Shown: one piece after another, positions 2,456 to 13,740 of the stretch
How positions within the stretch are numbered: position 1 is the stretch's first letter
Layout of the letters: every line of letters begins with the position of its first letter
Source of the DNA: Parasedimentitalea maritima
Lineage (GTDB): Bacteria; Pseudomonadota; Alphaproteobacteria; Rhodobacterales; Rhodobacteraceae
DNA length: 64,000 bases
Direction of reading: 5' to 3'
NCBI RefSeq assembly: GCF_005771405.1
Contig: NZ_VAUA01000003.1
Location: 186,001 to 250,000, forward strand
The notes under the pieces: model-generated
The model's database searches: none
What the model saw: the letters and a program-made list of their open reading frames with translations, nothing else
Told to the model about the DNA's origin: nothing
Position numbers and translations under genes: made by a program

Positions 2456-3217
2456 ATGCATCATTCAAACCAAACGGTCACCTCTAGACGCAAGGCACGC
2501 ATTCTCGACCAACCTGTTTGGCCAACCGTAAAGCTCTGGCTTGCCTTGGGAGCAGCTGACTTTCGCAATCACCTTGGACATTCAATTCTGTATGGCCTCG
2601 GCCTGGTGAGTGTAATCTGGCTAACCCTACTAGCGCTTGGCTACTTCAGGTTGGGCTGGATGATCCTGCCGATGATTTCGGGTGCTATGCTATTGGGTCC
2701 GCTGACAACGGTAGGGCTATACCGCATCAGTCGCCGGGCTCAGGGATTGGGGGGGCAAGGTGTCGCCGCACCCGGCCAGATCTTTCTGGTCAGCGTTGTC
2801 ATGATGGTCTTGATCTTGTCGTGGGTGCGGGCAGCTGTGCTGTTGTTTGCGGTTTTCTTCGGCCTTCGTCCATTTGTCGGCTTTTGGGAAACACTGCAAA
2901 CATTGTTCACCACACCTCAGGGCATTCTGCTGTTTGTGACCGGATCAATCACCGGTGGCCTGTTTGCAGCGCTTGGTTTTGCAATCTCTGTGTTTTCTTT
3001 TCCAATGCTGGTTCAGCGCGACATCGACGGGTTTTCTGCGATGGGTCTCAGCTTTAATGCAACCACCCAAAATTTTCGACTGATGCTGACCTGGGCCACC
3101 TGCGTGACTGCCTTGTCAGCCATCGCTGTCCTAACTGGCCTGTTGGCCTTGATCCCTCTCTTTCCAATCCTCGGCTTTGCCACCTGGCATGCCTACGCCG
3201 ACCTCTTTCAGGACTAA
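2456..3217 (+). CDS. DUF2189 family membrane protein
   Basis: A 253-residue integral membrane protein with about six transmembrane helices. Near residues 72-95 it carries the family's characteristic MISGAMLLGPLTTVGLY segment followed by ISRR, which leads me to call DUF2189. The function of the family is unknown; members are often found beside cytochrome oxidase genes (family knowledge). It starts at ATG 2456 after GATGAG-type sequence, 75 nt beyond the second globin, and ends 4 nt before the DUF1971 start, so it belongs to the same operon. Confidence 0.8.
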   Translation: MHHSNQTVTSRRKARILDQPVWPTVKLWLALGAADFRNHLGHSILYGLGLVSVIWLTLLALGYFRLGWMILPMISGAMLLGPLTTVGLYRISRRAQGLGGQGVAAPGQIFLVSVVMMVLILSWVRAAVLLFAVFFGLRPFVGFWETLQTLFTTPQGILLFVTGSITGGLFAALGFAISVFSFPMLVQRDIDGFSAMGLSFNATTQNFRLMLTWATCVTALSAIAVLTGLLALIPLFPILGFATWHAYADLFQD

Positions 3218-3221
3218 AACC

Positions 3222-3521
3222 ATGACCCAAACCCTACCAGAAAATGCCGTAAAGTATTCGGAAACTCCACTGTTTACCCAAGACACCATTCCGGAAGCGT
3301 TACGCCGAGATCACAACACAAAGCCCGGTGTCTGGGGGCAGATCGTCGTCACTGAAGGTACTTTGAATTACCTGCGTGAAAACCTGCCGGCCCAACAAAT
3401 CCCAGCTGGGGAAACCGCCGTAATCTGGCCTCAGGAACTGCACAAGGTTGCACCAATAGGTTCGGTTGCTTTCAAAGTCGAATTCTATCGCATCCCGGAT
3501 GCGGGGGAGGACCAGACATGA
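3222..3521 (+). CDS. DUF1971 (YeaR-like) small protein
   Basis: A 99-residue soluble cupin-like protein. The pattern LPENA.KYSETP.FTQDTIPEALRRDHNTK.GVWG...V..G.L.Y is that of DUF1971, the family of E. coli YeaR and the N-terminal part of some TehB proteins. E. coli yeaR is induced by nitrate and NO through NarL and NsrR (known), which fits its place beside an NsrR-like regulon. The start was set at ATG 3222, because upstream in-frame ATGs lie inside the DUF2189 gene. The stop overlaps ccoN by 4 nt. The biochemical role is unknown. Confidence 0.83.
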   Translation: MTQTLPENAVKYSETPLFTQDTIPEALRRDHNTKPGVWGQIVVTEGTLNYLRENLPAQQIPAGETAVIWPQELHKVAPIGSVAFKVEFYRIPDAGEDQT

Positions 3522-5134
3522 CACGACAATCTGAGATTCTGCTCACTCTGACCGCTGTGTTGTGCGTTCTAGTGCTGGGCATTGCCATCTTGGGATGGGG
3601 GGTCGACACCGGCTATGTCCTACATGGCTGGATCATCGCCATCGCAGCCGGCTGGGGTGCGATGTATCTCATAAACCGCCTGACCGATCCCTCTCCGGAT
3701 ATCCCGCTAGAATACAAGGACGACGTAATTAAGTGGGGTGTTCTGGCCTGCTTCGTCTGGGGTGTAATCGGGTTTACAATCGGAGACCTTCTAGCCTGGC
3801 AACTCGCATTCCCGTCACTGAACGGTGACATGTCCTGGAGTAACTTTGGCCGCATTCGACCAATTCACACAACTTCGGTGATCTTTGGATTTGGTGGTAA
3901 TGCATTGCTCGCCACTTCGTTTTATGTTGTTCAACGCACCTCGCGGGCTCGACTGTCCAGTGAAACACTGCCTTGGTTAGTGTTTGGAGGCTACAACCTC
4001 TTTGTTGTGCTTGCTGTCACTGGCTATCCGCTGGGGATTACCCAATCCAAAGAATATGCCGAACCAGAGTGGTACGCAGACCTGATCCTGCTGTTCACAT
4101 GGGTGGCTTATCTGCTGCTCTATATGCGGACGCTTGCCCGCAGAGCCGAACCGCATATCTATGTAGCCAACTGGTACTACCTTGGGTTCATTGTGGTGAT
4201 TGCAATGTTGCATGTGGTCAACAATTTGTCGGTGCCGGTCTCGATTTCCTACGCCAAAAGCTATCCCCTGTTTGCGGGCGTTCAGGACGCAATGACACAG
4301 TGGTGGTATGGCCATAATGCGGTTGGGTTTCTTCTGACTGCGGGCTTCCTTGGGATGATGTACTATTTCCTGCCCAAGGCAGTTGGCCGACCAATTTACA
4401 GCTATCGCATGTCAATTCTGGGGTTCTGGGGGATTACTTTCCTGTACCTCTGGGCCGGATCACATCACCTGCATTACACCGCCCTGCCAGATTGGGTTCA
4501 GTATCTGGGAATGACCATGTCGATCATTCTGCTGGTGCCCAGCTGGGGATCTGTGTTCAACGGAATTCTCACCCTCAATGGGGCCTGGGACAAAGTACGC
4601 ACCGACCCTGCGGTACGCTTCATGATGGTGGCAGTTCTGTTCTACGGGCTCACCACGTTTGAAGGTTCGTTTATGGCTATTCGTCCCGTCAATACGTTGA
4701 GCCACTATACCGACTGGACCGTTGGTCATGTTCACGCTGGGGCCCTCGGCTGGGTTGCCTTCATCACATTTGGGGCAATGTACAAAATGGTTCCATGGCT
4801 CTGGAAACGCGAGAGCATGTACTCGCTGCGGCTCGAAGCCTGGCACTTCTGGCTCGCGCTGACTGGGACCCTGATCTACGTGGGCGCCATGTGGAACAGT
4901 GGCATCACCCAGTCCCTGATGTGGCAGACTTACGATCCAAACGGGGCCTTCACCTATGCCTTTATCGACACTGTGGATGCGATGCGCCCCTATTACATAG
5001 CTCGCGCGATTGGTGGGCTTCTCTATCTGATCGGGGCGTTGATTGGGTCTTACAATATCTACATGACCGTCGCTGGCCCCCGGCTTCGCGGTGCTGACAA
5101 ACTTGCGTTGCCCTTGGCGCGACCTGCGGAGTGA
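3518..5134 (+). CDS. ccoN: cbb3-type cytochrome c oxidase subunit I
   Basis: Catalytic subunit of the high-affinity cbb3 oxidase (C-type heme-copper oxidase), 538 residues with about 12-14 membrane helices. Heme and CuB ligands are visible as RPIHTTSVIFGFG (low-spin heme), WWYGHNAVGF (CuB), AGSHHLHYTALPDW (two CuB histidines) and DWTVGHVHAGALGW (high- and low-spin heme histidines). Length is somewhat above the roughly 480-residue minimum but normal for this family. The order ccoN-O-Q-P follows. Position behind globins and DUF1971, rather than behind an FNR-controlled promoter, suggests this is an extra cbb3 operon dedicated to NO or low-oxygen conditions (inference). Confidence 0.97.
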   Translation: MTRQSEILLTLTAVLCVLVLGIAILGWGVDTGYVLHGWIIAIAAGWGAMYLINRLTDPSPDIPLEYKDDVIKWGVLACFVWGVIGFTIGDLLAWQLAFPSLNGDMSWSNFGRIRPIHTTSVIFGFGGNALLATSFYVVQRTSRARLSSETLPWLVFGGYNLFVVLAVTGYPLGITQSKEYAEPEWYADLILLFTWVAYLLLYMRTLARRAEPHIYVANWYYLGFIVVIAMLHVVNNLSVPVSISYAKSYPLFAGVQDAMTQWWYGHNAVGFLLTAGFLGMMYYFLPKAVGRPIYSYRMSILGFWGITFLYLWAGSHHLHYTALPDWVQYLGMTMSIILLVPSWGSVFNGILTLNGAWDKVRTDPAVRFMMVAVLFYGLTTFEGSFMAIRPVNTLSHYTDWTVGHVHAGALGWVAFITFGAMYKMVPWLWKRESMYSLRLEAWHFWLALTGTLIYVGAMWNSGITQSLMWQTYDPNGAFTYAFIDTVDAMRPYYIARAIGGLLYLIGALIGSYNIYMTVAGPRLRGADKLALPLARPAE

Positions 5135-5139
5135 ATTCA

Positions 5140-5871
5140 ATGGACACCAAACACGCAAAACTTGAACGCCACAGCATGGCCTTTGCCACGGCTATTCTTT
5201 TTGTGGCCTCTTTGGGCGGTCTCTTTGAAATCGCGCCTTTGTTCACCATCGAAAACACCGTGGAAAAGGTTGACGGCATTCGCCCCTACACCCCGCTTGA
5301 GCTGGCCGGGTTCGACATCTACGTGCGCGAGGGATGCTATGCATGTCATAGCCAGATGATCCGCACCTTGAAGTCAGATGTCGATCGTTATGGCCCCTAT
5401 AGCCTGGCGGCGGAATCGATGTATGACCACCCTCACCAATGGGGGTCCAAACGCACAGGACCAGATTTGGCGCGGATTGGAGGCAAATACTCAGACGACT
5501 GGCATGTTGCCCACCTCTCGGCCCCGCGCGCAGTTGTCGAAGGGTCCGTGATGCCCGGATATGCTTTCCTGTCGGATGTGTCTCTGGACACTGCACGCCT
5601 GCCCTCTTCTCTTATCGCACTGTCGCGCACTGGTGTTCCCTATACTGACATTCAGATCGAGAATGCTCAGCTAGACGCTAGCTATCAGGGAGATCAGGAC
5701 GCCGATTATGAAGACGATCTGATCGAACGCTACGGCCCAAACGTTCAGGTGCGCGATTTTGATGGCAATCCAGACCGTCTAACCGAAATGGACGCATTGG
5801 TCGCATATCTTCAGATGCTCGGCACCTTGGTGGATTTCGACACCCTGAACCACGAGGAGATCGCACGATGA
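5140..5871 (+). CDS. ccoO: cbb3-type cytochrome c oxidase subunit II (monoheme c)
   Basis: Membrane-anchored c-type cytochrome that passes electrons to CcoN. It has an N-terminal anchor (about residues 14-35), the heme motif CYACH at 66-70 within GCYACHSQMIR, and the distal methionine region VVEGSVMPGYAFL. At 243 residues it is family length. ATG 5140 was preferred over GTG 5131 because GGAG lies 8 nt before it; GTG 5131 would overlap the ccoN stop. The stop codon overlaps the ccoQ start (ATGA). Confidence 0.96.
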   Translation: MDTKHAKLERHSMAFATAILFVASLGGLFEIAPLFTIENTVEKVDGIRPYTPLELAGFDIYVREGCYACHSQMIRTLKSDVDRYGPYSLAAESMYDHPHQWGSKRTGPDLARIGGKYSDDWHVAHLSAPRAVVEGSVMPGYAFLSDVSLDTARLPSSLIALSRTGVPYTDIQIENAQLDASYQGDQDADYEDDLIERYGPNVQVRDFDGNPDRLTEMDALVAYLQMLGTLVDFDTLNHEEIAR

Positions 5872-6041
5872 CTGGTGATGCTGTACATGACGCCGTTCTT
5901 GTTTTTTCAAAAACCTGGGGGGCAATTTATCTGCTGGTTGTTTTCCTCTTGGCCGCGCTCTGGACCTATTGGCCGGGTCGAAAATCAATCTACGAGGCGG
6001 CAGCACAAAGCCCGCTTACTGATGAGGAAATCAAACAATGA
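5868..6041 (+). CDS. ccoQ: cbb3 oxidase small subunit CcoQ/FixQ
   Basis: A 57-residue single-helix subunit that links CcoP to the CcoNO core. The peptide has one hydrophobic segment (about residues 15-34, with WGAIYLLVVFLLAALWTY) followed by WPGRKSIYEAAAQ, matching the usual CcoQ layout of one helix then a short charged tail. It overlaps ccoO and ccoP by 4 nt each (ATGA junctions). It is below the size often used for automated gene finding. Confidence 0.9.
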   Translation: MTGDAVHDAVLVFSKTWGAIYLLVVFLLAALWTYWPGRKSIYEAAAQSPLTDEEIKQ

Positions 6042-6910
6042 CTCCGGAACGCGATGAGGTCAGCGGCGAATTGACCACTGGCCATGAATGGAATGGCATC
6101 AAGGAGCTGAACACCCCCATTCCCAAGGTCTTTCGCATTTGGCTATGGGGATCCATTGCAATCTGCGTAGTATATTGGTTGTTGTATCCCGCCTGGCCCT
6201 TTGTGTCAGATTATACCAAGGGCGTGTTGGGCTATTCGTCCCGGCTAGACGTACAGGAAAAAGTCGCTGATGGGCGGGCATTCCGCGCTGAATCCTTTGC
6301 TCCATTCGAAACAACTGATGTCACAACCCTATCTGAGGACCCGGATCTGCAGGCGCGTTATGAACCCGCAGCGCAGGTTCTCTACCGTGACAATTGTTCT
6401 GTTTGCCACGGTCGGGATTTGCAAGGGCAAGAGAGTTTTCCAAACCTGACCGATGGGCACTGGCTTTGGTCAAGCACCCCGGAGGAGATTGAATACACCC
6501 TGCAAGTTGGCATCAACACAACGCACCAAGACACCCGTTATGCCGAGATGCCCGCCTTTGGTCGGGATGAAATGCTGGCTGCTGCGGAAATTTCAGATGT
6601 CACCGACTATGTTCTCCAGATCTCAGGCCAACCCCACGACGCCACTGCCGCCGCACGTGGCGAGGACCTCTTTGCAGAGAATTGTTCCGGGTGCCACAAC
6701 GATGGTGGCGTTGGGGGGCTGGAAAGCGGTGCCCCAAGCCTGACCGATGAGGCCTGGATTTATGGGAAAGGTCCTGACGCCATACTGGAGACACTAAAAA
6801 ATGGTCGCGCCGGGGTTATGCCATCGTGGTCCACACGGCTTAGTCCTGCTGAGATCAAGTTGCTGACACTTTATGTGCTCTGGGCAGGAGAGGGTGATGC
6901 GAAACAGTGA
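6038..6910 (+). CDS. ccoP: cbb3-type cytochrome c oxidase subunit III (diheme c)
   Basis: Membrane-anchored diheme cytochrome c that accepts electrons from soluble cytochromes or cupredoxins. The 290 residues begin with a cytoplasmic segment containing DGIKEL-like HEWNGIKELNTPIP, then one helix (about 33-50) and two cytochrome c domains with CSVCH at 120-124 and CSGCH at 216-220. Both hemes and later methionine-containing motifs (PAFG, MPSW) are present. Its end overlaps the next small gene by 14 nt. Confidence 0.96.
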   Translation: MTPERDEVSGELTTGHEWNGIKELNTPIPKVFRIWLWGSIAICVVYWLLYPAWPFVSDYTKGVLGYSSRLDVQEKVADGRAFRAESFAPFETTDVTTLSEDPDLQARYEPAAQVLYRDNCSVCHGRDLQGQESFPNLTDGHWLWSSTPEEIEYTLQVGINTTHQDTRYAEMPAFGRDEMLAAAEISDVTDYVLQISGQPHDATAAARGEDLFAENCSGCHNDGGVGGLESGAPSLTDEAWIYGKGPDAILETLKNGRAGVMPSWSTRLSPAEIKLLTLYVLWAGEGDAKQ

Positions 6911-9148: not shown

Positions 9149-9324
9149 TAGCAATCACCTATCTCATCCCGCTCTCTATTGTCTTGGCAGTTATAACGTT
9201 TGCAGGGTTTCTGTGGACGGTTCGTACCGATCAATATGCTGATCCCGAAGGCGATGCAGCCCGAATGCTCGAGACCGAAGATGTCCCGCTCTCATCACAA
9301 GAACGGGACAACCTGCGCGGTTAG
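9145..9324 (+). CDS. ccoS: cbb3 oxidase maturation protein CcoS
   Basis: A 59-residue single-helix protein needed for cofactor insertion into cbb3 oxidase in organisms where it was tested. The peptide has a hydrophobic segment (about 4-25) followed by RTDQYADPEGDAARML, close to the family signature FWAVRSGQFDDLEGPAHRIL. The start is ATG 9145, overlapping the ccoI stop. Its TAG stop (9322-9324) overlaps the TAA stop of the convergent gene, so the two operons meet with no spacer. Confidence 0.92.
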   Translation: MIAITYLIPLSIVLAVITFAGFLWTVRTDQYADPEGDAARMLETEDVPLSSQERDNLRG

Positions 9325-10100
9325 GCGCTTTTGGGTCGACCTGCAGCGACCCAATAACCGCCGCCCATAAAAATAGCCCCAGCCACCGCATTTCCTGCAC
9401 TAACAAAGGCTAGATTTCTCAACGCGCCTGCCAGCGACACATGTTCTGAATGTTTAGACAGCAGGGCAATTGCAAAGACCGTCATATTGGCAACCGAGTG
9501 CTCAAACCCTGCAGCGATAAAGGCGTAGAGGCAGAACCAGATGAGGGCGATTTTGGCCATGTCATTCGACGTGCGCGCGCCAGTCCAGATTGCCAGGCAA
9601 ACCAGCCAATTGCAGAGCATCCCTTTCAAAAACAACCCAAGGCCATCGCCTTTTATTTTCTTCTCGGCGATCTGATGTAACAGGCTATTTTCTTCGGCTC
9701 CCAATATCAGACCACCACCTCCGTAAACGAACACCACTGCAAGTAAGCTCGCGCCGAGCAAGTTACCTGACCAGCTTGCCAACCAACACCGGATCAGGTC
9801 ACCTAAGCCCGTGCGTCCAGTTAACAGCCCCAGTGTCATGTACATTGTATGGCCGGTGAAGAGTTCTGAACCTGCGTAGATCACCAACATCAGCGCAATG
9901 CCAAAACTTGCCCCCATCACTACCGGGCGAATACCCGGATCAACCCCCTGACCGACTGAGAAAATCAGCAAGATACCCAGCCCAACATAAGCGCCAGCCA
10001 TCATCGACAGAACAAAGAAACCCAATGGGTCCTTCCGCAGGTGTTTGCGCTTTTTCACCGCGAGATCAGCGAAGTTCGATACCGTGTCGTGAAACGTCAT
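9321..10100 (-). CDS. Formate/nitrite transporter (FNT) family channel
   Basis: Pentameric inner-membrane channel family for small monovalent anions (formate, nitrite, hydrosulfide). The 259-residue protein has six hydrophobic segments and FNT-type features: GAYVGLGILL in helix 1, GSELFTGHTMYM at helix 2, WSGNLLGA, KGMLCNWLVCLAIW around the re-entrant loop, and GFEHSVANM. Nitrite is a reasonable cargo given the NO-related neighbours (inference). ATG 10100 was chosen; an in-frame TTG at 10136 would give 12 more residues. The start lies inside the upstream gene and the stop codon overlaps ccoS. Confidence 0.9.
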   Translation of the reverse strand: MTFHDTVSNFADLAVKKRKHLRKDPLGFFVLSMMAGAYVGLGILLIFSVGQGVDPGIRPVVMGASFGIALMLVIYAGSELFTGHTMYMTLGLLTGRTGLGDLIRCWLASWSGNLLGASLLAVVFVYGGGGLILGAEENSLLHQIAEKKIKGDGLGLFLKGMLCNWLVCLAIWTGARTSNDMAKIALIWFCLYAFIAAGFEHSVANMTVFAIALLSKHSEHVSLAGALRNLAFVSAGNAVAGAIFMGGGYWVAAGRPKSA

Positions 10101-10641
10101 TGTCGTCGTCTTTCTTATTTGATGAGATATGTCCAAAGAGCACCGGGATGATCCACCAGAGGATCAACGCGCAGGCGACGTAAACAAATCCGAGCCCCAG
10201 ACGTTGCTGGTCATCCACCAGGTACGAATTGCAAAGTCGCATCGGAGCATGTGTGTAGAGGAAGCCAAGGAACAGCAGCATTGAAATGGCCTGTGCTTTC
10301 AGGAACCCGCGCAGTACAGAACCAACGTGAGACAAGGCGGCAGCAAGTGGCAGACCAACGCAAAGTGGGAGCGTTACAAATTTGGCCGCCATCCAAACCG
10401 GATCCAACAAAGCGGCATCCAAGGAACGGGGCAGCATCCAGATCGCCAGAGACACAAGTGCCAAAACCAATGCGGGGCCCGAGAAGTGTTGTGGCAATCG
10501 AAACCGCCCCCCCAACAGGGCCCCCGCAAGGATCAAGGCAGGAAACTGCGCCAAAACATGGATCACAGGGTCCTGTCCAACCAAAGGCTGCAGGCTACAA
10601 GCAATTGAAAAAGCAGTACCAGCCATGACAATTCGGATCAC
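10066..10641 (-). CDS. Integral membrane protein, possibly oxidase-assembly related
   Basis: A 191-residue protein with about six hydrophobic helices and a charged C-terminal tail. The start is GTG 10641, overlapping the Sco stop (GTGA) with GAGG 7 nt upstream. I do not recognise it firmly. The last helix region, VDDQQRLGLGFVYVACA, recalls the DQQLGG-containing final helix of CtaG-type CuB assembly proteins, which would fit a gene between sco and other reductase genes; that similarity is weak and unverified. Its 3' end overlaps the FNT gene by 35 nt. Confidence 0.7.
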   Translation of the reverse strand: MIRIVMAGTAFSIACSLQPLVGQDPVIHVLAQFPALILAGALLGGRFRLPQHFSGPALVLALVSLAIWMLPRSLDAALLDPVWMAAKFVTLPLCVGLPLAAALSHVGSVLRGFLKAQAISMLLFLGFLYTHAPMRLCNSYLVDDQQRLGLGFVYVACALILWWIIPVLFGHISSNKKDDDNDVSRHGIELR

Positions 10642-11228
10642 AGCATTGCCTCAACTGCTGAACGGATGTCTTCGAACGCCCGTGTATCGTATGCGCCTGC
10701 GAACTCTCCGTTTGGATTTATGACCAAAACTGCGATGTTGTGCTTATAGCCACCCCAACCGTCCGGTATGACAGTGACGCGGAACAAATCTAACAGCCCT
10801 GCCACTACGTCTATTTCCGGTCTCGCGATGGTCCAGGGGTGACCAGATGCGCCATGAGCTTCGCCATATGACTGCAGTTCCGGCAAGCCATCTGCGACTG
10901 GATCAAAGCTGACAGAATACATCGGCACATCCAGCCCCTCGTCCGTCAAATGATCCCGCAACTCAGCAAAGTCACCGCCTGATGTCTGACAGATTGTTGG
11001 ACAGGTGGTGTAAATGAACTCCAGCAGGATGGGTTGCCCCTGCGCGGGCCACATTTGCAGACTGCCATCCATTGTCTCCAGCGAAACGGGCGGAACATGT
11101 ACTGGATTTTCAGCTATCTGGACACGCCGTGCCCCCTCGGCGGTCACCGCCCGCCCCCCGTCTGTAGCTTGCCAGATCGCAGCACAGCCCAACAGGGCTG
11201 CGCTAAGGGTGAAAGTCACCTGTTTCAT
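10638..11228 (-). CDS. Sco1/SenC family copper chaperone
   Basis: Thioredoxin-fold, membrane-anchored periplasmic copper chaperone that loads CuA sites. The 196-residue protein starts at ATG 11228, overlapping the subunit I stop. It has an N-terminal anchor (about 5-19), the copper motif CPTIC at 76-80 and a downstream histidine in GGYKHNIAVLVIN. The CuA subunit II in the same operon is the obvious client (inference from context). Confidence 0.93.
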   Translation of the reverse strand: MKQVTFTLSAALLGCAAIWQATDGGRAVTAEGARRVQIAENPVHVPPVSLETMDGSLQMWPAQGQPILLEFIYTTCPTICQTSGGDFAELRDHLTDEGLDVPMYSVSFDPVADGLPELQSYGEAHGASGHPWTIARPEIDVVAGLLDLFRVTVIPDGWGGYKHNIAVLVINPNGEFAGAYDTRAFEDIRSAVEAML

Positions 11229-12679
11229 TGTGACCGCCTCGCCAGACCCGCCACATACCGCACAACCAATACCAAGGTTGCCAACACCACTATCAGGGCA
11301 AAGCCGCTCGCCAACTGGCTTTGCAACTGCCATTGTTCATAATGCACCGCCCAGCGACGTGGAATGGAACTGGCTCCAGACCACAGGAAGATCAAAACAA
11401 ATCCTGCTCCGCCAAACACGTAGGCGCGAAACACCAGACGATCCAGGTTGGATAGTATGGTGACGGCTTTGTCCCGAACCAGCCAAGCTGCAAAACCAAA
11501 AGCCATGGCGACTTCACCCAGCAACAGGTAGGTATGAAAATGGCCGGGGACCCATTGTGTATTATGCATTAGCTTGTTCACCGAGACCATGCCATCAACC
11601 ATCGCCGGAATGGATCCCAGCCCCCAGCCGACAACACCCAATGTCAGCAAACTGATGGGGAGATCCCACTTCAGCCCTGACCCCTTGATGTAAACCGCTA
11701 GGGAAAACACCGTGACACCAATCAATGGCACGCCTGAGGCGTATGAGACGATCTGGCCCACTGCCATAGTCCAAGCCGGCATGTTTACGTCTTGCAGCAG
11801 GTGGTGGAAGTACACCGCCTGAACAAACACCACGACAGCGGCCCAGGCCCCGATAAACAGCTTGGTCGATTTCCAAGGGCGCCCGGTATAGTCCGGCAGG
11901 ATCTCGTAAACCGCTGTGATTGCCATGTAGATCGTCGCATTGATGAAAACATGCCCAAAGAAGTAAATCGCATTCTTAGCCAACAGCGGATCAACCTCAA
12001 AACTGGGGAGCAGCAGATTAACGATGCTCGCTGCCAATACGGCTGCCCCAAATACAATCCCAATCGTATTGAAAACCAACACACTGGATGCGGCCACAAT
12101 GGTTGGAGGCGGAACATCAGTGCTGTTGTTGGCAAAAAGGTAACGCCAGCCCAAACCACCCAGAAGACCGTTGTAACGACTGGCAATTTTCAACCCCAGT
12201 TCAAGGTAATACAACAGGAATCCAACGCCAATCAGCAAATAGCCAACGCAGAACATAACACCGGCCCAGGCCTCCCATAAACCACCAGACATGGCTGGCA
12301 GTGGGAACAAGAACGTCCATGCCCCACCATATCCGCCGATAAAGATAGACCCAAGGATCAACACCACCCCCGCCAGAAACAGGCCCAAAAACGCGATGTA
12401 GATGCTGGATCTCAGGTTCAAATGGCGCGCAGAGAAGAACCAAAGGATCGCTGCACCGGACAATGCGGCGGATCCGACCATCCCCGCTCCATGAGCCGTC
12501 AGCAACAGATAGAATATCTCGGGATCCAGAGAAATCAGATCCCCCTGCGCGACCCGCATAATCAACCCAAAAACCATCATGAGCAGGAACACCACACCTC
12601 CCAAAAGCATGGTGAATTTCACCAAGGCCTCTTGTGGGTTTGGTCCGCTCTCAGCGGAATGCACATCAGTTGCAGACAT
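11225..12679 (-). CDS. Heme-copper reductase subunit I lacking the oxidase tyrosine (candidate NO reductase)
   Basis: A 484-residue heme-copper superfamily subunit I with about 12 helices. All six metal ligands are visible: His63 and His382 (low-spin heme), His380 (high-spin heme), and His243, His292, His293 (CuB). In A- and B-type oxidases the CuB histidine of helix VI is followed four residues later by the cross-linked tyrosine (HPEVY-type motif); here the motif is GHVFIN with Asn247 in that place. Absence of this tyrosine is typical of NO reductases. Unlike cNOR (Glu at the same position), the subunit pairs with a CuA subunit II. I infer an atypical CuA-dependent NO reductase, related to the less-studied NOR groups of the superfamily. 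Substrate is not proven; a divergent oxygen reductase is the alternative. Confidence 0.85.
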   Translation of the reverse strand: MSATDVHSAESGPNPQEALVKFTMLLGGVVFLLMMVFGLIMRVAQGDLISLDPEIFYLLLTAHGAGMVGSAALSGAAILWFFSARHLNLRSSIYIAFLGLFLAGVVLILGSIFIGGYGGAWTFLFPLPAMSGGLWEAWAGVMFCVGYLLIGVGFLLYYLELGLKIASRYNGLLGGLGWRYLFANNSTDVPPPTIVAASSVLVFNTIGIVFGAAVLAASIVNLLLPSFEVDPLLAKNAIYFFGHVFINATIYMAITAVYEILPDYTGRPWKSTKLFIGAWAAVVVFVQAVYFHHLLQDVNMPAWTMAVGQIVSYASGVPLIGVTVFSLAVYIKGSGLKWDLPISLLTLGVVGWGLGSIPAMVDGMVSVNKLMHNTQWVPGHFHTYLLLGEVAMAFGFAAWLVRDKAVTILSNLDRLVFRAYVFGGAGFVLIFLWSGASSIPRRWAVHYEQWQLQSQLASGFALIVVLATLVLVVRYVAGLARRSQ

Positions 12680-13182
12680 CAGTTTTGCTCCAGTACTTCA
12701 AAGTCATAAGTCATGTCGTGGTGCGCGATGCCGCATAATTCCATACAAAGGATCTGGTATTGCCCGGCCTTGTCAAAGGTGTGGACAACCTTGTTTGTAT
12801 AGGTCGGCATTGCCTGAACCTGCACCACCAGGTTCATGTCCGGGTCATAGATGCCCAATCCGTGGTTGACGTCCTCGGTTGTGACCCGGAACTCCACTTG
12901 CTGCCCAAGAGGAATTTCCGTGGTGTCGGTTTCCCACCACCACTGACCGCTGGTAATATTCACGATCAGTGCATCGTCAGCAGCGGATGTGTGCGGCCAT
13001 TCCCGTAGTGATCCAACCGAAATGACAACCCCAACGGCTATCATCCCCCACAGAAAGCAGGATCGGGTTCGGTTAATGGTTTTGGGTGCCGAGGGACCCT
13101 CTGTGGCCCAGACCGCACGCAGGATCAGCCACCCTGCCACGCCCATCAAACCCAGAGTTATAAGAAGAATCGAAAGCTGCAT
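12679..13182 (-). CDS. CuA-containing heme-copper reductase subunit II
   Basis: Electron-entry subunit, 167 residues, with two N-terminal membrane helices (about 4-24 and 43-60) and a periplasmic cupredoxin domain. All CuA ligands are present: His107, Cys146, Glu148, Cys150, His154 and Met157 (CMELCGIAHHDM). The aromatic patch QWWWE for electron entry is also there. It is short compared with A-type subunit II and lacks a fused cytochrome c. It overlaps subunit I by one start/stop junction (ATGA). It heads the five-gene minus-strand operon, with promoter motifs shared with the divergent Rrf2 regulator. Confidence 0.92.
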   Translation of the reverse strand: MQLSILLITLGLMGVAGWLILRAVWATEGPSAPKTINRTRSCFLWGMIAVGVVISVGSLREWPHTSAADDALIVNITSGQWWWETDTTEIPLGQQVEFRVTTEDVNHGLGIYDPDMNLVVQVQAMPTYTNKVVHTFDKAGQYQILCMELCGIAHHDMTYDFEVLEQN

Positions 13183-13223
13183 ATTGGCCTCACTTTAGTT
13201 GTGCTTCTCGTTCTGGGTACAAA

Positions 13224-13242
13224 TTGGTATTTCAAATGTCAA
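13224..13242. promoter_or_regulatory. NsrR-like operator palindrome (site B)
   Basis: TTGGTATTTCAAATGTCAA is a near-perfect 19-bp palindrome: outer TTG/CAA, ATTT/AAAT inner arms, with compensating purine/pyrimidine changes. It lies between the divergent CuA-reductase operon and the rrf2 gene, and resembles the site at 984-1002 between pseudoazurin and the globin operon. The form fits NsrR-type operators; binding by the adjacent regulator is inference. Confidence 0.65.
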
Positions 13243-13249
13243 TTTTAAT

Positions 13250-13266
13250 TTGCACTTTGAATACCA
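13250..13266. promoter_or_regulatory. Degenerate second NsrR-like half-site (site C)
   Basis: TTGCACTTTGAATACCA, starting 8 nt after the site at 13224-13242, matches the reverse complement of that palindrome apart from a one-base gap, and keeps the TTTGAATACCA half well. It may be a second, weaker site that serves autoregulation of the regulator gene starting at 13291. Confidence 0.45.
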
Positions 13267-13290: not shown

Positions 13291-13740
13291 ATGCAGTTAT
13301 CGAAATTTTCAGACTACGCCCTTCGCATATTGATCCATCTGGCAGCTTCGCCTGACCAGTTGCTGTCAACCCGGCAAATTGCTGAGTTGCATGATGCAAA
13401 ATACAATCACCTCGCCAAGATCACTGGCTGGTTGGTCAACGAAGGCTATGCCATCTCATCTCGTGGCCGTGGCGGCGGGCTGAAACTGGCAAAGCATCCT
13501 GACGAGATAAACCTCGGCAAAGTTTTTCGCGCCCTCGAAGCAGACAAACCTTTGGTCGAATGTATGTCGTCTGACGGCGGCAACTGTAGGTTCTCACCTG
13601 CGTGCGGATTGTCGGTTATTCTCGACACCGCACAAGAAGCTTTTTTTCAAAGTTTAGAACAGTTTACCCTGTCTGATCTTCCCCGGATGTCCCCCGGGAT
13701 GAACAAATTGCTAGACATGGTGAACTCTGAAATCGCTTAG
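13291..13740 (+). CDS. Rrf2 family regulator, NsrR-like (Fe-S NO sensor)
   Basis: A 149-residue winged-helix repressor. The N-terminus MQLSKFSDYALRILIHLA and the recognition region YNHLAKITGWL are close to NsrR. Three cysteines for the Fe-S cluster are Cys91, Cys99 and Cys105, ending in FSPACGL as in NsrR's TPACRL. NsrR loses DNA binding when its cluster reacts with NO (known). The first cysteine gap is seven residues here instead of four in E. coli NsrR, an insertion of SSDGG type. Divergent to the CuA reductase operon with palindromes in between, it most likely controls the whole 0.5-13 kb island. Confidence 0.87.
   Translation: MQLSKFSDYALRILIHLAASPDQLLSTRQIAELHDAKYNHLAKITGWLVNEGYAISSRGRGGGLKLAKHPDEINLGKVFRALEADKPLVECMSSDGGNCRFSPACGLSVILDTAQEAFFQSLEQFTLSDLPRMSPGMNKLLDMVNSEIA

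Follow-up and report, generated by a model that had tools for sequence, protein, structure and literature searches.

A predicted sNOR operon in Parasedimentitalea maritima, with a divergent NsrR-like regulator gene and a nitrite/formate channel gene alongside

What does a heme-copper enzyme do when asparagine stands where oxygen reductases carry their cross-linked tyrosine, and does such an enzyme represent a known or a new group of nitric oxide (NO) reductases (NORs)? The question is raised by a five-gene operon in Parasedimentitalea maritima (Alphaproteobacteria, Rhodobacteraceae), which lies on contig NZ_VAUA01000003.1 of assembly GCF_005771405.1 within a stretch of 64,000 nucleotides (positions 186,001 to 250,000), here called the window and used as the source of all coordinates unless a locus is named. 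A preliminary description had proposed either a little-studied NOR group or a new one; the first proposal holds and the second does not, sNOR having already been described. Judged from its sequence, the operon is sNOR (norS-norY-senC-orfH), a known family and not a new NOR group, and adds one further member to those already on record for this group of bacteria. It probably encodes an NsrR-controlled NO reductase that is fed through CuA by cytochrome c or a cupredoxin and clears toxic NO.

The operon comprises five minus-strand genes spanning 13182-9321, neighbours having overlapping ends and all open reading frames being present at the positions given here, together with a divergent regulator gene:

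12679-13182, minus strand: norS, CuA subunit II, 167 amino acids (Pfam COX2, E 3.2e-07)
11225-12679, minus strand: norY, heme-copper subunit I, 484 amino acids, with Asn247 and six metal-binding histidines (Pfam COX1, E 3.1e-44)
10638-11333, minus strand: senC, Sco copper-delivery protein with a CPTIC motif (Pfam SCO1-SenC, E 1.3e-12)
10066-10641, minus strand: orfH (orf1/cbaC2-type), membrane protein, 191 amino acids (no Pfam family)
9321-10136, minus strand: FNT channel, NirC type (Pfam Form_Nir_trans, E 4.5e-65)
13291-13740, plus strand: NsrR-like Rrf2 repressor, divergent (Pfam Rrf2)
13222-13266, no strand assigned: candidate operator between norS and the nsrR-like gene (inverted repeat and overlapping NsrR-like site)

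The norS product has two hydrophobic segments at its N-terminus and a complete CuA motif (CMELCGIAHHDM), read as a CuA site by a pattern that we take to be characteristic. The Sco gene probably starts at the ATG at 11228, which overlaps the norY stop, the GTG start of orfH overlaps the Sco stop, and the channel gene probably starts at the ATG at 10100. The channel scores 286.9 bits against the NCBIfam NirC model, just below the cut-off of 293, and is 49% identical to an E. coli FNT protein taken as NirC (unannotated) and 26% identical to E. coli FocA. Open reading frames and Pfam matches thus bear out the tightly overlapping operon, with CuA subunit II, Sco and FNT genes beside an NsrR-like gene, that had been described. 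The suggestion that the fourth gene might be CtaG-like was not sustained: it has no Pfam match, profile comparison with Caa3_CtaG (using a profile of two sequences) gave a probability of 2% and an E-value of 0.025, and we assign the gene as OrfH, not CtaG.

Subunit I can be aligned with cytochrome oxidase subunits whose structures are known, retains all six metal-binding histidines (H63, H243, H292, H293, H380 and H382) and has Asn247 where the cross-linked tyrosine would stand, in agreement with the preliminary description. Among 103 homologues—a set containing near-duplicates and copies of one contig—H63, H243, H292, H293 and N247 are kept in every row, as are Tyr251 and Tyr258, while H380 and H382 are kept in 102/102 rows, one row being short and without these columns. 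When aligned with 16 reference rows, column 247 holds tyrosine in all nine A/B-type oxygen reductases, glutamate in all four cNOR/qNOR sequences (as had been claimed for these enzymes), glycine in both cbb3 sequences and glutamine in one Defluviimonas plasmid protein. In helix VII, the column of V286 holds tyrosine in both cbb3 rows and V in 90, A in two and T in one of 93 sNOR rows, an alignment that includes copies of one contig (L017/L030, L023/L079); none of these 93 rows has tyrosine at either known cross-link column.

Subunit I therefore has Asn in place of the cross-linking helix VI tyrosine of A/B-type oxygen reductases and of the glutamate of cNOR and qNOR, and V286 in place of the helix VII tyrosine of the C-type (cbb3) enzymes; nor does it have the glutamine given for eNOR (PMC8756737). 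Tyr251 sits at the column where cNOR and qNOR carry a second glutamate, and the column of Tyr258 also holds tyrosine in three B-type and two cbb3 rows. A structure model of subunit I (pLDDT 86.7; weak at 367-377, beside heme ligands) has the heme-copper oxidase fold in a fold comparison that ranked A-type matches first and ba3 lower; the predicted structure confirms the fold alone.

We assign the operon to sNOR because active-site residue, gene order and tree position all point there. Table A4 of PMC8756737, adapted from Hemp and Gennis, gives N as the active-site residue of sNOR and lists Betaproteobacteria, Silicibacter, Deinococcus and Geobacillus as hosts; the same table gives Q for eNOR, E for cNOR and qNOR, and N for CuANor, in Bacillus. 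The gene order norS-norY-senC-orfH, printed in PMC4964001 and PMC4940428, is found here together with Asn247, the six histidine ligands and the CuA subunit II. NCBIfam matches subunit I weakly, and as an oxidase, and PMC11388526 treats sNOR as one of the sequence-based proposals for NORs and not as a biochemically characterised enzyme.

A first tree contained 16 references and 60 of the 93 sNOR rows (82% identity cut); its sNOR rows grouped in a single clade (support 100/99), separate from the rows of types A, B and C and of cNOR/qNOR. A second tree of 41 of the 103 sNOR rows (70% cut), in which the bootstrap had not fully settled, again gave one clade apart from all of these (100/100); the 41 include three of the ten rows from a family of ammonia oxidisers bearing ammonia monooxygenase (AMO). 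Two loci, L115 (an interrupted ba3 oxidase) and L120 (a qNOR), were left out as references, and the named Nitrosomonas and Bacillota sNOR/bNOR sequences are compared here by description. Placement firmly among the oxygen reductases, which by the preliminary description would have refuted its proposal, was not seen; for its second such condition, a tyrosine reaching CuB from another helix, the sequence was examined, and neither known cross-link column has one. The stems and the reference branches are long, so deeper joins are uncertain and we make no claim as to the oxygen-reductase family from which sNOR arose.

Within the ammonia-oxidiser family, 25 of 120 genomes have an sNOR match (24 at 45-48% identity, one at 34%); AMO was found in 20 of these 25, and the AMO of one further member of the family exceeds the bacterial AmoA cut-off. 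For the three rows in the tree, AMO was found in genomes G703 and G753 and not in G792. At nine of ten loci from this family, the genes for subunit II, subunit I, Sco and OrfH occur with an FNT match nearby (in L165 as two weak pieces); subunit I is 44-46% identical to that of the window at nine loci and 32% identical at the tenth. Ammonia-oxidiser sNOR thus shares with the window the active-site Asn, CuA subunit II, Sco, OrfH, gene order, clade and adjoining FNT, and differs in that the FNT belongs to another subfamily and no Rrf2 gene was seen at the ten loci. The most distant of these loci (L164:4564-6589, 32% identity) keeps the Asn and has only the two subunits, with no Sco, OrfH or FNT match nearby.

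On its megaplasmid, Ruegeria pomeroyi DSS-3 (formerly Silicibacter pomeroyi) has these five genes in the same order, FNT included, and likewise a divergent Rrf2 gene (SPO_RS20765-RS20740), its subunit I being 66% identical over 92% of the window's; there too a cco cluster, a globin gene and a DUF2189 gene adjoin. It differs in having a cytochrome c gene after FNT (c-550-like, below cut-off) and HAO and HaoB genes about 13 kb from sNOR, HAO not being found in the window's genome. The HaoB gene lies with a gene for a multiheme cytochrome (megaplasmid 211718-214342; L174:719-3343), the latter being homologous, at 54-55% identity, to HAO-like genes of the ammonia-oxidiser family. The R. pomeroyi record annotates sNOR as a cbb3-type oxidase, and the NO-reducing capacity of such bacteria may therefore be undercounted.

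cNOR and qNOR are likewise NO reductases of the heme-copper superfamily, and differ in the glutamate at the tyrosine column (4/4 rows) and in forming a separate clade; cNOR is not known to carry a CuA subunit. Thermus ba3-type enzymes of the B family share tyrosine at the Y258 column (3/3 rows) and differ in having tyrosine at column 247 and in falling outside the sNOR clade. As described in PMC3475470, 'qCuANOR type II' of Bacillus azotoformans and Geobacillus has a short subunit I with Asn, a subunit II with two N-terminal transmembrane helices, SenC and a protein of four to five transmembrane helices. The Bacillus bNOR/CuANOR (qCuANOR type I) shares the CuA subunit and active-site Asn by description, and differs in that its subunit I gene is longer, at 1683-1707 bp, and that it has a third subunit of 46 amino acids (PMC3475470). 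Older names are muddled because PMC3475470 calls type I sNOR, seemingly the bNOR (formerly CuANOR) of PMC11388526.

Whether the substrate of sNOR is NO or O2 is disputed (PMC6967387), and regulation bears on this question. Against NCBIfam equivalogs, the divergent regulator scores best with NsrR (95.5 bits, cut-off 182), with RirA close behind (86.9); it has Asp8 and three cysteines (C-x7-C-x5-C), a three-cysteine pattern found in 54 of 55 sNOR-linked Rrf2 frames, two of which come from L059. In a neighbourhood survey of 83 loci—the best 80 of 525 relatives from a scan of named genomes, plus three plasmids—44 of the 62 loci with long enough flanks on both sides have an Rrf2 gene within 4.5 kb.

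Between the window's regulator gene and norS is an imperfect 20-nt inverted repeat (13225-13266, arms 75% complementary), overlapped at about 13222-13244 by an NsrR-like site that agrees with the consensus at 14/22 positions. The consensus used was a 23-mer (AAGATGCATTTNAAATGCATCTT) that extends the printed NsrR motif; the motif itself is given as gATGyAT-N5-ATrCATc (PMC1274295). Significance was set at p<=0.05 against dinucleotide shuffles, with the norS start approximated as 172 amino acids back from the stop. On this basis, 40/77 upstream regions (the window's included) passed; once near-duplicates were removed, leaving 52 regions, 24 had a significant site before norS, as against 0/52 stretches inside subunit I and 2/47 stretches about 2 kb upstream. 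Twenty-one of the 24 lie roughly 25-80 bases before norS. Relative L102 has a site near the same place, AAGGTGCATTTCAAATACATCTT, close to the printed motif, and Leisingera and Ruegeria have a variant, AATAGGTATTTnAAATACCTATT, behind a TTGACA box; the sites before norS fit the motif of PMC1274295, a 2005 paper that reports no NsrR orthologue in alphaproteobacterial genomes except that of R. capsulatus E1F1.

These sites, found before norS in many relatives, offer independent evidence for NO as a physiological signal. Together with the linked regulators, they count in favour of NO for the lineages in question, among which the window is placed by its gene order. The evidence as a whole favours NO over O2 as the predicted substrate. 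NO attack on the Fe-S cluster of NsrR relieves repression; by the same route, NO would attack the cluster of the window's regulator and derepress the operon. Sco would then load CuA, and OrfH would aid assembly or form a third subunit. A periplasmic donor—a cytochrome c, or perhaps the plastocyanin/azurin-family protein encoded at 486-1061—would reduce CuA, and the low-spin heme would relay the electrons from there to the heme-CuB site for the conversion of two NO to N2O and water. The tyrosine would be dispensable because NO reduction takes just two electrons and involves no O-O cleavage, and Asn247 and Tyr251 may shape the active-site pocket. The FNT channel would move nitrite across the membrane (export being our guess), limiting the NO formed from nitrite. 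For Nitrococcus mobilis, indirect evidence that sNOR acts as an NO reductase is cited in PMC6967387.

Several observations weigh against an NsrR-controlled NO reductase. Taken singly, neither the window's operator (p=0.119) nor the one in its 98% relative L026 (p=0.188) reaches significance; 28 of the 52 deduplicated upstream regions are without a significant site, 18 of the 62 surveyed loci have no Rrf2 gene nearby, and the regulator falls below the NsrR cut-off with a nearly equal RirA score. Within the DNA read, 0/10 loci of the ammonia-oxidiser family have an Rrf2 gene, and NsrR control is therefore not common to all sNOR; PMC4940428 lists NsrR for one of three tabulated ammonia oxidisers having norSY. 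As the host genome also encodes a cNOR and four oxygen reductases, its need for sNOR is open to question, and the cbb3 cluster adjoining the operon fits a role at low O2 as well. Such a role, in which sNOR would be a high-affinity terminal oxidase that turns O2 to water with Asn247 tolerated or the part of the tyrosine taken by another residue, is argued for Nitrosomonas europaea, where expression of the genes increases 2.7- to 10.8-fold when O2 is limiting (PMC6967387). It gains further from the cco cluster beside sNOR in both the window and R. pomeroyi, from the alignment of Y258 with the tyrosine of B-type and cbb3 rows, and from the ammonia-oxidiser loci without Rrf2 genes. Ranged on the other side are the two cross-link columns without tyrosine, the invariant Asn, the NsrR-type sites and linked regulators of many relatives, and a host already furnished with two cbb3 and two A-type oxidases, and we regard an oxidase as unlikely.

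We give far less credence to some other nitrogen oxide reaction, such as an oxidation of NO that yields nitrite and in which CuA serves as the exit for electrons. FNT (nitrite/formate) channel genes do adjoin sNOR in several lineages, and HAO genes occur near sNOR in R. pomeroyi and, in print, in Nitrosospira; yet sNOR is present in just 25 of the 120 ammonia-oxidiser-family genomes, and no FNT gene lies within 4.5 kb at 28 of 62 surveyed loci. HAO as a general partner of sNOR was rejected, as it was found in the three positive controls, R. pomeroyi and two genomes of the ammonia-oxidiser family, and in none of 37 other sNOR-bearing genomes. Equally improbable, in our estimation, is coupled clearance of NO and nitrite by sNOR and FNT, in which, with O2 present, the Asn-type heme-CuB site would oxidise NO to nitrite at CuB, CuA would pass electrons to cytochrome c and the channel would carry the nitrite, NO reduction being the low-O2 direction of the same enzyme. 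Least credible is an undescribed NOR group: the weak NCBIfam match as an oxidase, the long clade stem and the named Nitrosomonas and Bacillota sequences outside the tree sampling speak for it, and it is rejected because the window's enzyme agrees with the sNOR of the AMO-bearing family in active-site residue, gene order and clade, and because Silicibacter is already listed for sNOR (PMC8756737). An NO reductase thus remains the reading that we prefer, and the context around the window's sNOR makes its disputed function easier to test. A mutant fitness assay for R. pomeroyi DSS-3 is in print (PMC10041152) and renders the dispute between NO and O2 accessible to experiment.

The host genome has two A-type and two cbb3 oxidases, one cbb3 cluster being that in the window (3518-6910, followed by assembly genes), next to the sNOR operon. 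It also has a d1-heme gene taken as NirS, NosZ and a NorB of the cNOR type, behind which lies an AAA-type gene read as norQ; with the NirS-type gene, cNOR and NosZ the host is predicted to denitrify, and sNOR would be its second NO reductase. Three cytochrome d1-domain frames lie close together (G000:C6:59393-70208), the one of 630 amino acids being that taken as NirS. NirK, as a source of NO, was not found in the host genome, and neither was CopC, which is of no consequence here.

At a threshold of E 1e-60, a match is present in 6 of 295 genomes of the window's family; a phylum-wide draw at 1e-30 gave 6 of 398, and both counts include the window's own genome. Among the best 80 of 525 relatives, Ruegeria, Leisingera, Tritonibacter, Bradyrhizobium, Aromatoleum, Thiohalobacter and other genera are represented, the nearest named record being Zongyanglinia huanghaiensis at 98% identity, in a scan that may leave out records of the host genome itself. 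In surveyed loci with enough DNA, subunit II lies upstream of norY in 70/70, and downstream are Sco in 67/68, OrfH in 66/68 and a same-strand FNT gene in 35/68. In Rhodobacteraceae bacterium HTCC2083 (L033:5477-7461), the norS frame matches in part and there is no OrfH or FNT match; this sNOR cluster may be decaying.

With both flanks considered, FNT lies within 4.5 kb at 34 of 62 loci; it stands upstream on the opposite strand in four gammaproteobacterial loci (L086, L098, L100 and L102) and downstream on the opposite strand in some loci of the ammonia-oxidiser family. An FNT tree of 36 of 56 rows (78% cut; several long branches, with long-branch warnings) separated a NirC-side group from Alpha- and Gammaproteobacteria from a group holding the ammonia-oxidiser family and Thermomicrobium roseum (100/100), and FNTs of at least two subfamilies therefore came to adjoin sNOR. 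A nitrite transporter next to sNOR is reported for ammonia oxidisers (PMC4964001); for other organisms, we found no published account of this adjacency in the open-licence literature, where nitrite transporter terms were sparsely queried. The recurrent neighbour is an unexplained link between NO reduction and nitrite transport, and a testable one.

The T. roseum plasmid (L108:5336-9130) carries a distant sNOR-like pair (subunit I 35.5% identity) followed by FNT and a true CtaG, with no Sco or OrfH annotated; its FNT gene, though annotated, was missed by the score threshold of the survey. Upstream of the cco cluster in the window lie the genes for the plastocyanin/azurin-family copper protein, a bacterial globin (1976-2380) and a DUF2189 membrane protein (2456-3217), as well as a second globin-looking open reading frame without a Pfam match (1046-1501). 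On the Defluviimonas plasmid (L124:3291-5021), the heme-copper subunit I with glutamine at the tyrosine column has heme o synthase and SCO genes adjoining and a COX2-type partner upstream, just below the Pfam cut-off, and by these features it looks like an eNOR.

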